A stretch of DNA of 64,000 nucleotides from Chelatococcus sp. HY11 (GTDB taxonomy: Bacteria > Pseudomonadota > Alphaproteobacteria > Rhizobiales > Beijerinckiaceae). Below, one piece after another: positions 54,608-56,189 of this stretch. Each line of letters opens with the position of its first letter. The first letter of the stretch is position 1. Where the stretch lies: positions 62,001-126,000 of the forward strand of contig NZ_JAHBRX010000001.1 of NCBI RefSeq assembly GCF_018398335.1. The letters run 5' to 3'. The notes below the pieces were generated by a model, which saw nothing but the letters and a program-made list of their open reading frames with translations, ran no database searches and was not told the origin of the DNA. The position numbers were made by a program, and so were the translations under genes.

Positions 54608-54655
54608 GGGGCAGGCCAGGTGGCGTGCGCAGCCCATGCAGAATATGCCCGCCCC
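54608..54655 (+). repeat. Hairpin unit 1
   Basis: Arms GGGGCAGGC / GCCCGCCCC, one A-C mismatch; 30-nt loop; motif CGCAGCCCA. Begins 5 bases after the preceding stop codon. Confidence 0.8.
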
Positions 54656-54663
54656 AACTGAAT

Positions 54664-54709
54664 TCGTGGGCCACAATTCAACCGCAAACCATGTTCCGGG
54701 CGCCCACGA
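54664..54709 (+). repeat. Hairpin unit 2
   Basis: Arms TCGTGGGC / GCCCACGA, perfect; 30-nt loop; motif CGCAAACCA. Confidence 0.9.
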
Positions 54710-54717
54710 TCCACTTC

Positions 54718-54761
54718 GGCTGGCCAATGAACCGGCGCAATCCACAAGGCTAGCGCCAGCC
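54718..54761 (+). repeat. Hairpin unit 3
   Basis: Arms GGCTGGC / GCCAGCC, perfect; 30-nt loop; motif CGCAATCCA. Confidence 0.9.
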
Positions 54762-54771
54762 AACCCTATGA

Positions 54772-54819
54772 CGATGGGGCCATTGAATGCTCGCAACCCG
54801 TTCGGTGCGCGCCCCATCG
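54772..54819 (+). repeat. Hairpin unit 4
   Basis: Arms CGATGGGGC / GCCCCATCG, perfect; 30-nt loop; motif CGCAACCCG. Loop and inner stem closely resemble unit 11. Confidence 0.9.
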
Positions 54820-54828
54820 CCACCTCTC

Positions 54829-54876
54829 GCTGAGGGCCACGCCCACGACGCAACCCACCCCACTTGCGCCCTCAGC
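54829..54876 (+). repeat. Hairpin unit 5
   Basis: Arms GCTGAGGGC / GCCCTCAGC, perfect; 30-nt loop; motif CGCAACCCA. Ends 20 bases before the ATG of the IS110-like gene. Confidence 0.9.
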
Positions 54877-54896
54877 AACCCACTCAGGAGACTGCC

Positions 54897-55862
54897 ATGC
54901 TTTCCGTCGCCGAGATCGCCCAATCGACCACCCGGAATTCACGAATTGCTGCTGGCCCTGGCTCCGTCGCAACCATCAGGACTAAAGCCAGCAGCAACCC
55001 CACGCATAGGGAGCGGGCCAGCGCGCCGCCGCCGCCCACCATCATGTCGCCCGCTCCCTATGCCACCCCAGACATCATCCCACTGGCACCCTATGAGGCC
55101 ACCGCCGAGATCCAGGAGGCGACAGACCAGATCATCGAATTTTGGCGACTGCGTCAGGACATGGTCTCGGCACAGACAAAGCTAATCCTCCAGGCGAAGT
55201 CACTGCTACGGCGCGCCATTGGCGGTGACAAGAAGGAGGCGTCTGCGGCGTTCGATCGGATCAAGGCCGGGGAGCCTCATCCGTATTCGGGGCACATCTT
55301 CCCGCACCTTGCTGCACTCGAGCCCATCGAAAAGCAGCGCGCCGCCTATGAGAAGTCGCTCGTAAAGCTCGTCCGCACCCTCCCGATCCATGCTTGGGCA
55401 AAGTCCGTCAAGGGGCTCGGCGAGATGTCGCTTGCCGGCATCGTCGGGGAGTGCGGGGACGTGGGCACCTACAAGAGCGTCTCGGCTGTGTGGAAGCGGA
55501 TGGGGCTAGCCGTGATCGACGGCAAGGCCCAGGGCCGGCCGGGGGCAGGCGCGTCCGCGGACGACTGGATCAAGCACGGATACAGCAAGCGCCGCCGCTC
55601 TGTGTCCCGCGTCGGGCTTCAGTATGTGATCGGCAGCATGGGGCTGTACCGATCGCCGTTCGGGGCGGATGACCCTGGCGCGACCTATTACCAGAAGGTC
55701 TTTACCGATCGCGCTCGATACGAGGCGGAGATGCTCGGGTTGCCCGTCAAAGAGTCCAAGACGGGCAAGGACTCTTACGATGCGCACGTCGCAAACCGCG
55801 CCCTGCGGTATGTCGAGAAGCGAGTGCTGAAGCACTTGTATTTGGAATGGCGGCGCGCATAG
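54897..55862 (+). CDS. Orphan IS110-type C-terminal transposase-domain protein inside the hairpin array
   Basis: A 321-residue protein. After a low-complexity start, residues 70-110 form a coiled coil (EIQEATDQIIEFWRLRQDMVSAQ). The C-terminal half follows the Transposase_20 pattern of IS110/IS116: helix-hairpin-helix VKGLGEMSLAGIVGECGDVGTYKS, then WKRMGL, a Gly/Ala/Ser loop (GRPGAGASADDW) where IS110 enzymes carry the catalytic Ser, then YSKRRRSVSRVGLQYVIGSM and a final helix. The N-terminal RuvC-like DEDD domain of IS110 enzymes is missing. AGGAG precedes the ATG at 54897. Hairpin units 6 and 7 lie within the frame and encode about residues 17-56; a start at 55044, inside the unit 7 loop, is the alternative but lacks a ribosome site. 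Confidence 0.8.
   Translation: MLSVAEIAQSTTRNSRIAAGPGSVATIRTKASSNPTHRERASAPPPPTIMSPAPYATPDIIPLAPYEATAEIQEATDQIIEFWRLRQDMVSAQTKLILQAKSLLRRAIGGDKKEASAAFDRIKAGEPHPYSGHIFPHLAALEPIEKQRAAYEKSLVKLVRTLPIHAWAKSVKGLGEMSLAGIVGECGDVGTYKSVSAVWKRMGLAVIDGKAQGRPGAGASADDWIKHGYSKRRRSVSRVGLQYVIGSMGLYRSPFGADDPGATYYQKVFTDRARYEAEMLGLPVKESKTGKDSYDAHVANRALRYVEKRVLKHLYLEWRRA
54946..54997 (+). repeat. Hairpin unit 6, inside coding sequence
   Basis: Arms TTGCTGCTGGC / GCCAGCAGCAA, perfect 11 bp; 30-nt loop starting CC; motif CGCAACCAT. Shares 15 identical loop bases (GGCTCCGTCGCAACC) with unit 12. Confidence 0.88.
55004..55063 (+). repeat. Hairpin unit 7, inside coding sequence
   Basis: Arms GCATAGGGAGCGGGC / GCCCGCTCCCTATGC, perfect 15 bp, the longest uninterrupted stem; 30-nt loop; motif degenerate, CGCCGCCCA. 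Confidence 0.88.
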
Positions 55863-55870
55863 CGCTGCCG

Positions 55871-55916
55871 GGGCGGGCCAGAGAATGATTGCAACCCATC
55901 AGCCCTTCGCCCGCCC
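55871..55916 (+). repeat. Hairpin unit 8
   Basis: Arms GGGCGGGC / GCCCGCCC, perfect; 30-nt loop; motif TGCAACCCA. Starts 8 bases after the stop of the IS110-like gene. Confidence 0.9.
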
Positions 55917-55924
55917 TAACAGCT

Positions 55925-55984
55925 TGACATGAGATGGGCCATCGGAAGACCGCAACCCATTGCTGCTACGCCCTTCTCACGTCA
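55925..55984 (+). repeat. Hairpin unit 9
   Basis: Arms TGACATGAGATGGGC / GCCCTTCTCACGTCA, 13 of 15 pairs; 30-nt loop; motif CGCAACCCA. Confidence 0.88.
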
Positions 55985-55990
55985 TCCCTT

Positions 55991-56039
55991 TGTGCGGGCC
56001 ATGGTCCTCGCGGAACCCATGGAGCGTGCCGCCCGCACA
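55991..56039 (+). repeat. Hairpin unit 10
   Basis: Arms TGTGCGGGC / GCCCGCACA, perfect; 31-nt loop, the only one that is not 30; motif CGGAACCCA. Confidence 0.85.
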
Positions 56040-56040
56040 C

Positions 56041-56063
56041 TATGACGGCCGTCGGCCGTCATA
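56041..56063 (+). repeat. Loop-less hairpin between units 10 and 11
   Basis: TATGACGGC / GCCGTCATA, perfect 9 bp around CGTCG (10 bp if the next C-G is counted). The stem closes with GGC/GCC like all array units, but the 30-nt loop is absent. It may be a unit that lost its loop, or a separate element. Confidence 0.8.
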
Positions 56064-56070
56064 TGAGAAA

Positions 56071-56131
56071 TTGGTGGGGTTGGGGCCACTGAATGTGCGC
56101 AACCCATTCTTTCTGCGCCCCATCCCACCAA
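56071..56131 (+). repeat. Hairpin unit 11
   Basis: Arms TTGGTGGGGTTGGGGC / GCCCCATCCCACCAA, 14 pairs with one T-T mismatch and one bulged G; 30-nt loop; motif CGCAACCCA. Confidence 0.88.
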
Positions 56132-56135
56132 CCAA

Positions 56136-56189
56136 AGAGAGCGGGGCCAGGGCTCCGTCGCAACCCAGGGTCTCCGCGCCCCGCTCTCT
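56136..56189 (+). repeat. Hairpin unit 12
   Basis: Arms AGAGAGCGGGGC / GCCCCGCTCTCT, perfect 12 bp; 30-nt loop; motif CGCAACCCA. Last unit of the array. Confidence 0.9.

Follow-up and report, generated by a model that had tools for sequence, protein, structure and literature searches.

A repeat array and an associated gene, tasA, were analysed in a 64,000-nucleotide (nt) stretch of Chelatococcus sp. HY11 DNA (the window; C1:62001-126000 of the 6.95-Mb genome). The array comprises 12 hairpins on the + strand (54608-56189) with stems of 7-15 base pairs (bp), and the surrounding region is prophage-like, carries genes of the integrase, repressor and replication types and lies beside a tRNA-Met gene. 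Units 6 and 7 fall inside the tasA coding sequence, the remainder of which lies between units 1-7 and 8-12, and a further gene precedes the array (Table 1). The same genome carries a second prophage at C1:270001-350000 with an array of its own; its DNA was 94.7-97.0% identical to the window prophage over 4.7 kb. The tasA relative in the second prophage was 86% identical to the window copy, and the copies in two congeners were 97-98% identical.

The original prediction, made from the letters alone, had reported twelve hairpins in the same orientation, and all of them were present. The loop was 30 nt in 11 of the 12 hairpins and 31 nt in unit 10. On the + strand of the array region, a loop length of 30 gave 11 hairpins and a length of 31 gave one, while the other lengths from 24 to 36 gave none. 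In 300 dinucleotide shuffles of this region, the mean number of such hairpins was 0.08 (maximum 2), compared with the 11 observed; the first 54 kb of the window contained 4 hairpins with 30-nt loops on the + strand. The claim that the stems are selected for structure was also borne out. In a set of 24 units, 97.9% of the stem positions were paired, compared with 67.1% after shuffling, and the stem covariation score was 0.713 compared with 0.140; neither value was reached in 500 shuffles. A covariance model, which had been suggested as a check, was built from these 24 units (11 of them window units; L008 and L027 contributed none). It recovered all 12 window units (E <= 0.0013), together with 9 units in the second prophage (L008) and 12 in the congener G015 (L027), and the best match outside arrays in the 264 kb searched had an E of 0.25. 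None of the outcomes named beforehand as refuting the prediction was seen: homologous arrays exist elsewhere, and in related phages the stems remain paired and the loops, with few exceptions, are 30 nt long. The units had further been described as lying 1-10 nt apart and filling the intergenic space; the array is there, but two units lie within tasA, tasA intervenes, and units 10 and 11 are 37 nt apart, with a separate inverted repeat in the gap.

Table 1. Features of the array region (positions in the window)
Feature	Start	End	Strand	Spacer A	Spacer B	Remarks	Detected by
Conserved neighbour gene	53844	54602	+			aligned part begins at ATG 54057; homologue beside tasA	
Guide unit 1	54608	54655	+	GGTGGCGTG	TGCAGAATA		covariance model
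Guide unit 2	54664	54709	+	CAATTCAAC	TGTTCCGGG	1-bp overlap type	covariance model
Guide unit 3	54718	54761	+	ATGAACCGG	CAAGGCTAG		covariance model
Guide unit 4	54769	54822	+	TTGAATGCT	TTCGGTGCG		covariance model
Guide unit 5	54829	54876	+	CGCCCACGA	CCCCACTTG		covariance model
tasA	54897	55862	+			321 amino acids; TasA-like, no recognised nuclease domain; ATG 54897 behind AGGAG	
Guide unit 6	54946	54997	+	TGGCTCCGT	CAGGACTAA	within tasA coding sequence; 1-bp overlap type; 16/17 to tRNA-Gln(ctg)	covariance model	
Guide unit 7	55004	55063	+	GCGCGCCGC	CCATCATGT	within tasA coding sequence	covariance model	
Guide unit 8	55870	55917	+	GAGAATGAT	TCAGCCCTT		covariance model
Guide unit 9	55925	55984	+	TCGGAAGAC	TTGCTGCTA		covariance model
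Guide unit 10	55991	56039	+			31-nt loop	covariance model
Inverted repeat	56042	56062				ATGACGGCCG-T-CGGCCGTCAT	
Guide unit 11	56077	56126	+	CTGAATGTG	TTCTTTCTG		covariance model
Guide unit 12	56136	56189	+	GGGCTCCGT	GGGTCTCCG		covariance model

Each unit has the layout stem-GGC, CA, a 9-nt spacer A, CGCAACCCA, a 9-nt spacer B, C and GCC-stem. In 87 units with distinct spacers from 12 arrays, the loop was mostly CA, nine free bases (A), CG-CAAC-CCA, nine free bases (B) and C, and the stem closed with GGC/GCC in most units. The loop had been called constant, but in sequence two variable spacers flank a constant part. Each spacer was preceded by CC in nearly all of the 87 units (by CCA in most) and followed by CG or TG in nearly all. 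The TIGR guides of TasR possess CCA as box C and UG as box D (PMC12045711), and the motifs before and after each spacer, judged by their sequence, correspond to these boxes. In unit 6, box C is altered and the loop repeat is shifted. The distance from GGC to GCC is 36 nt, and the mature dual-repeat tigRNA is also 36 nt, while the cut sites of the published stem-loop system vary (PMC12045711).

TasA matched the NCBI model NF052498 (TIGR_Tas_endo) with an E of 8.3e-20 and 71.7 bits and, more weakly, the IS110 model NF033542 (E 2.4e-7). A profile of eight TasA relatives found one PDB chain at E<=0.1, namely 9mty_A (E 2.9e-6), which is 331 residues long and annotated as an IS110 C-terminal-domain protein; from this length, 9mty is probably the published TasR. 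No Pfam match was obtained for TasA and no nuclease domain was recognised. A search for tasA in plasmids gave 0 matches. Faure et al. 2025 described a TasA with 13 stem-loops in sub-arrays on a Peromyscus leucopus gut contig (PMC12045711). Because of this precedent and the match to a Nop-type Tas protein, the locus was assigned, from its sequence, as a phage-borne stem-loop TIGR array of the TasA type. The earlier statement that no described repeat family has this form therefore does not stand, since stem-loop TIGR arrays beside TasA were published in 2025. The same paper raises the possibility that stem-loop arrays in which the loop sequence is conserved are an intermediate form, and the window array fits this description.

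Like the published P. leucopus system, the locus combines a nuclease-less Tas protein with sub-arrays of hairpins (12 units compared with 13) whose stems are variable but palindromic, and a pair of short spacers lies between boxes C and D. Unlike it, the loop repeat is nearly constant here and the loop is fixed at 30 nt. Moreover, the units within tasA, the conserved neighbour gene, the signs of a 1-bp half-site overlap and the candidate natural targets reported below are unmentioned in the available portion of PMC12045711. The dual-repeat TIGR arrays (TasR, TasH, FpTasA) share the 9-nt spacers, the CCA box C, the 36-nt length and probably the opposite-strand targeting rule, but have edge repeats where unrelated stems occur here. 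The IS110 family is characterised by an N-terminal DEDD/RuvC domain. The IS110 transposase, which works with a bridge RNA, has a domain related to TasA; however, many single-loop guides are found here instead of one bridge RNA. An IS110 transposon was rejected because the match to the profile is confined to its positions 120-260 of 343, leaving the part with the N-terminal domain unmatched. Like CRISPR, the locus is an array of short variable guides apparently directed at mobile elements, but it has no constant repeat and its spacers are replaced in place. CRISPR was rejected, in agreement with the original prediction, because the stems differ between units and near-identical direct repeats are not present. 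REP elements and attC were put aside on anatomy alone, and no search was made for them.

The most satisfactory interpretation, which we hold to be probable, is that the prophage carries a stem-loop TIGR array, with TasA as its effector, that serves RNA-guided DNA binding against rival elements and renews its spacers. The array and tasA message would be transcribed, and each hairpin would be excised to act as a guide RNA with two spacers, held in a TasA dimer through its box C (CCA) and box D (CG/TG), as in TIGR-Tas described by Faure et al. 2025 (PMC12045711). Spacer A would then pair with one strand of the DNA target and spacer B with the other, and in many arrays the two half-sites would overlap by one base pair at the centre of a 17-bp target. 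Since TasA has no nuclease domain, it most likely binds and bends the site instead of cleaving it, and could thereby block expression or integration of rival mobile elements. Such sites would be the start and stop of the capsid gene for phage RHph_X2_25 and possibly tRNA genes for others. Comparison of the arrays shows that spacers are renewed unit by unit while the stem scaffold stays fixed. The processing, the RNA-guided binding and the non-cleaving silencing or blocking of rivals are inferred from this analogy; the authors of the discovery paper likewise speculate that TasA silences or blocks without cleavage (PMC12045711).

Exact 17-mer scans of IMG/VR were run for five guides and gave 1 match for G15_4, 7 for W_2, 4 for X2_7, 0 for W_6 (window unit 6) and 5 for X2_5. 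For X2_7, which is guide 7 of phage RHph_X2_25 (ATGGAGTCTCCATACGA), three of the four exact copies were in phages with about 60% G+C, where they spanned the start of the major capsid gene and its ribosome-binding site, and the fourth was on an unrelated contig. The three phages represent two lineages about 80% alike, and the gene was taken as the major capsid gene because it lies downstream of portal and protease genes. Among the 50 capsid leaders listed (69 related loci were fetched), 19, many of which are closely related, had the site at 16 or 17 of 17 positions. Guide 5 of the same phage (X2_5) matched 16/17 at the capsid-gene stop codon of phage 16-3, and the IMG/VR scan prompted by this match gave five exact copies, three on a capsid stop codon and two elsewhere. 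The capsid assignment was based on capsid similarity for L233 and L235, which are 76% identical, and on the C-terminal peptide and 81% DNA identity to L235 for L237. The genome of RHph_X2_25 itself had neither capsid site with fewer than 4 mismatches in positions 4867-68757 of 68757 (93%). X2_5 and X2_7 are two of the seven RHph_X2_25 guides listed, the other five having no exact match. That two guides of one phage should match opposite ends of the capsid gene, and do so in two lineages of capsid, is not easily ascribed to chance. The RHph_X2_25 array is a relative of the window array, and the matches of its guides to the start and end of the capsid gene of other phages suggest what such systems do.

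In addition, 49 overlap-type guides were searched against 2.82 Mb, with the loci fetched by the guides' own scans left out. Two of them (Resp_2 and S_5) had exact matches, compared with none in 60 control sets. Resp_2, from Rhizobium esperanzae, had its exact site 4 nt behind an open reading frame of rhizobial phages in three loci (L131, L138, L153), which form one lineage, L131 being 95-98% identical to the other two. S_5, from the second prophage, had its site in the congener G015, 318 bp from a tRNA-Arg gene and about 27 kb from a terminase gene. The controls of this search keep the overlap-type class, whereas the spacer-B-permuted controls used in the non-overlap and tRNA tests hold fewer such pairs. 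An exact gap-2 match of guide Malb_5 in RHph_X2_26 was taken as chance.

Some guides matched tRNA genes. W_6 matched 16/17 in a tRNA-Gln gene of G015, which adjoins an integrase gene, and at the same place in a tRNA gene of its own genome. G15_4/G55_4 matched a host tRNA-Pro gene at 16/17 and, at 17/17, the tRNA-Pro gene of a viral contig that its own scan had brought up; G15_4 had 0 matches in 397 family genomes. None of 20 permuted sets gave a tRNA match of at least 16/17. These matches, and the position of the integrase gene, are what would be expected if the guides acted mainly on the host, with TasA placed on tRNA attachment sites or other loci for the phage's own integration or for host regulation, and TasA has been proposed as a possible aid to integrases (PMC12045711). 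We regard this explanation as unlikely, though worth considering, since the capsid-gene sites are phage and not host sequence, the window prophage lies beside tRNA-Met and not tRNA-Gln or tRNA-Pro, and tRNA matches of at least 16/17 were limited to these two of 124 guide pairs.

The arrays themselves carry a sign of the targeting geometry. Were A and the complement of B adjoining half-sites with an overlap of one base pair, the last bases of the two spacers (A9 and B9) should be complementary. This was the case in 33 of 87 spacer pairs compared with 17.6 expected (permutation p 5e-5), and none of 400 permutations was as high at any of the 81 position pairs. The signal was replicated in three arrays fetched afterwards (16/35 pairs compared with 7.6 expected, p 2e-4). 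In total, 49 of 122 pairs were complementary compared with 24.8 expected, with z between 4.75 and 5.77 when any single array was left out. The 122 pairs were from units with 30-nt loops detected by the scanner, other loops and missed imperfect units being left out; three units (one from the second prophage array S, two from G55) were added by hand, and window unit 10 was added for the target searches only. In many arrays, the half-sites thus often appear to share one base pair of a 17-bp target, which agrees with the opposite-strand rule for TasR. When gaps from -4 to 9 were tried in other geometries (A with the reverse complement of B in both orders, A-B and B-A), nothing was prominent except the array itself (A-B, gap 9). 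Faure et al. 2025 found no obvious covariation of spacers A and B in dual-repeat arrays, and the available portion of their paper reports tests of gaps and not of overlaps (PMC12045711); some covariation exists here. As A9 and B9 occupy equivalent positions directly before box D, they could instead form an RNA base pair within the guide. This is quite improbable, because all four Watson-Crick classes were raised but G-U hardly (15 compared with 14.1; 17 compared with 13.9), and the exact natural matches are contiguous 17-mers sharing that base.

Closely related arrays differed mainly in their spacers. Between the window and the second prophage, the stems of eight matched units agreed in 135 of 148 bases (63% in unmatched units), while the spacers agreed in 43 of 144 (25% in unmatched units). 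The second prophage has three units downstream of tasA and the other close arrays have five. Between the window and two congeners, the non-spacer columns were 88-92% identical and the spacers 27-46%. In 120 orthologous spacer comparisons among four arrays, 0-6 of the 9 bases were alike in 110, 7 or 8 in two and all 9 in eight; in 60 unit comparisons, both spacers were kept (at least 7/9) in 4, one in 2 and none in 54. Whole spacers, mostly as pairs, are thus replaced in place in an all-or-none manner with the order of the stems kept; our first guess is that phages exchange cassettes by way of the stems. Three further phages or prophages (L011, L022 and L036) have position-specific stems in common (GCAGATCGGC, TTGCTTGT.., TTCCTGA..) and different spacers, and by this comparison show the same turnover in another lineage. 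A decayed or selfish repeat with freely drifting spacers would account for the nearly random orthologous spacers (30% vs 25%) and for the irregular unit 6, but is very improbable, because spacer identity is all-or-none and not graded, stems and boxes have been retained, and both the A9/B9 signal and capsid sites matching guides were found.

Several results weigh against the preferred interpretation. The TIGR_Tas_endo match is under the curated cut-off of 100 bits, and the AlphaFold model of TasA, with a predicted local distance difference test score (pLDDT) of 51.8, was too poor to confirm the fold and was not used. The window array and its two nearest relatives (W, G15, G55) had no A9/B9 signal (5/32 compared with 5.2 expected). 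In the 2.82 Mb, 47 of the 49 overlap-type guides had no exact match. With one mismatch allowed, 5 guides had matches; the controls averaged 0.82, but 5 was equalled by one control set. The count for the guides includes X2_7 and G15_4, whose loci were fetched on their own leads, whereas the exact Resp_2 and S_5 matches are free of both limitations. For guides lacking the overlap, no target exceeded what permuted pairs gave. For none of the window guides was an exact match obtained in demonstrably rhizobial sequence: W_6 reached 16/17, and the seven exact copies of W_2 were on four AT-rich contigs and on three contigs of one family (about 91% alike, G+C 0.49-0.50), the latter related at the protein level to a prophage stretch of G015. 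In all seven copies the same reading frame yields the peptide IQPGT, which falls in several phage proteins and is perhaps a structural-protein motif or a matter of codon usage.

Weighing both sides, we lean towards a more specific form of the preferred reading, with less confidence than the general one. Temperate rhizobial phages would carry a nuclease-free, programmable TIGR-TasA weapon against start, stop or attachment sequences of their rivals, including those of capsid genes, both spacers would check the central base pair of the 17-bp sites, and renewal would proceed chiefly by replacement of spacers or spacer pairs and not by CRISPR-like addition. The natural targets and the spacer origin of TIGR arrays were named as open questions in the discovery paper (PMC12045711). 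The stem-loop family studied here offers candidate natural targets in named phages, at the start and stop of the major capsid gene, a signature of the targeting geometry for which the arrays alone suffice, and closely related prophages in which the turnover of spacers can be traced. Furthermore, isolated Sinorhizobium and Rhizobium phages, including 16-3, make these points testable. Among the titles listed in the literature searched, none beyond PMC12045711 and PMC12385481 concerned TIGR-system biology. Within that literature, the supplements of PMC12045711 aside, we found no report of the A9/B9 complementarity, the all-or-none replacement of spacers in place in related prophages, the guide units in tasA, the neighbour gene, or the 17/17 matches of RHph_X2_25 guides to capsid start and stop sites of rhizobial phages.

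Units 6 and 7 fall in the N-terminal stretch of tasA, ahead of the conserved domain. Eleven loci were examined, and in 10 of them the start could be placed by rule; 1-3 guide units lay within tasA in nine of these 10, the exception being Metarhizobium album, whose tasA had no guide unit inside. The four closest tasA copies had the same distance from start to domain and no stop codon despite their differing spacers. Excision of such hairpins must break the tasA message, so that guide maturation probably competes with tasA translation.

A homologue of the neighbour gene accompanied tasA in all 11 loci tested. At E 0.001 the window copy of its protein matched nothing in Pfam, NCBIfam or PHROGs, five homologues had no convincing match in Pfam or PHROGs, and a fold search against viral models gave no match at E<=0.001. 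The protein was predicted to be mostly helical (pLDDT 76.9 for the L013 copy). As a constant companion of tasA, the gene is perhaps another component of stem-loop TIGR systems.

Two further observations concern the array. The inverted repeat between units 10 and 11 is kept in both congeners and has no box motifs; it is perhaps a regulatory site. Moreover, the spacers A of unit 6 (TGGCTCCGT) and unit 12 (GGGCTCCGT) are alike in 8 of 9 bases.

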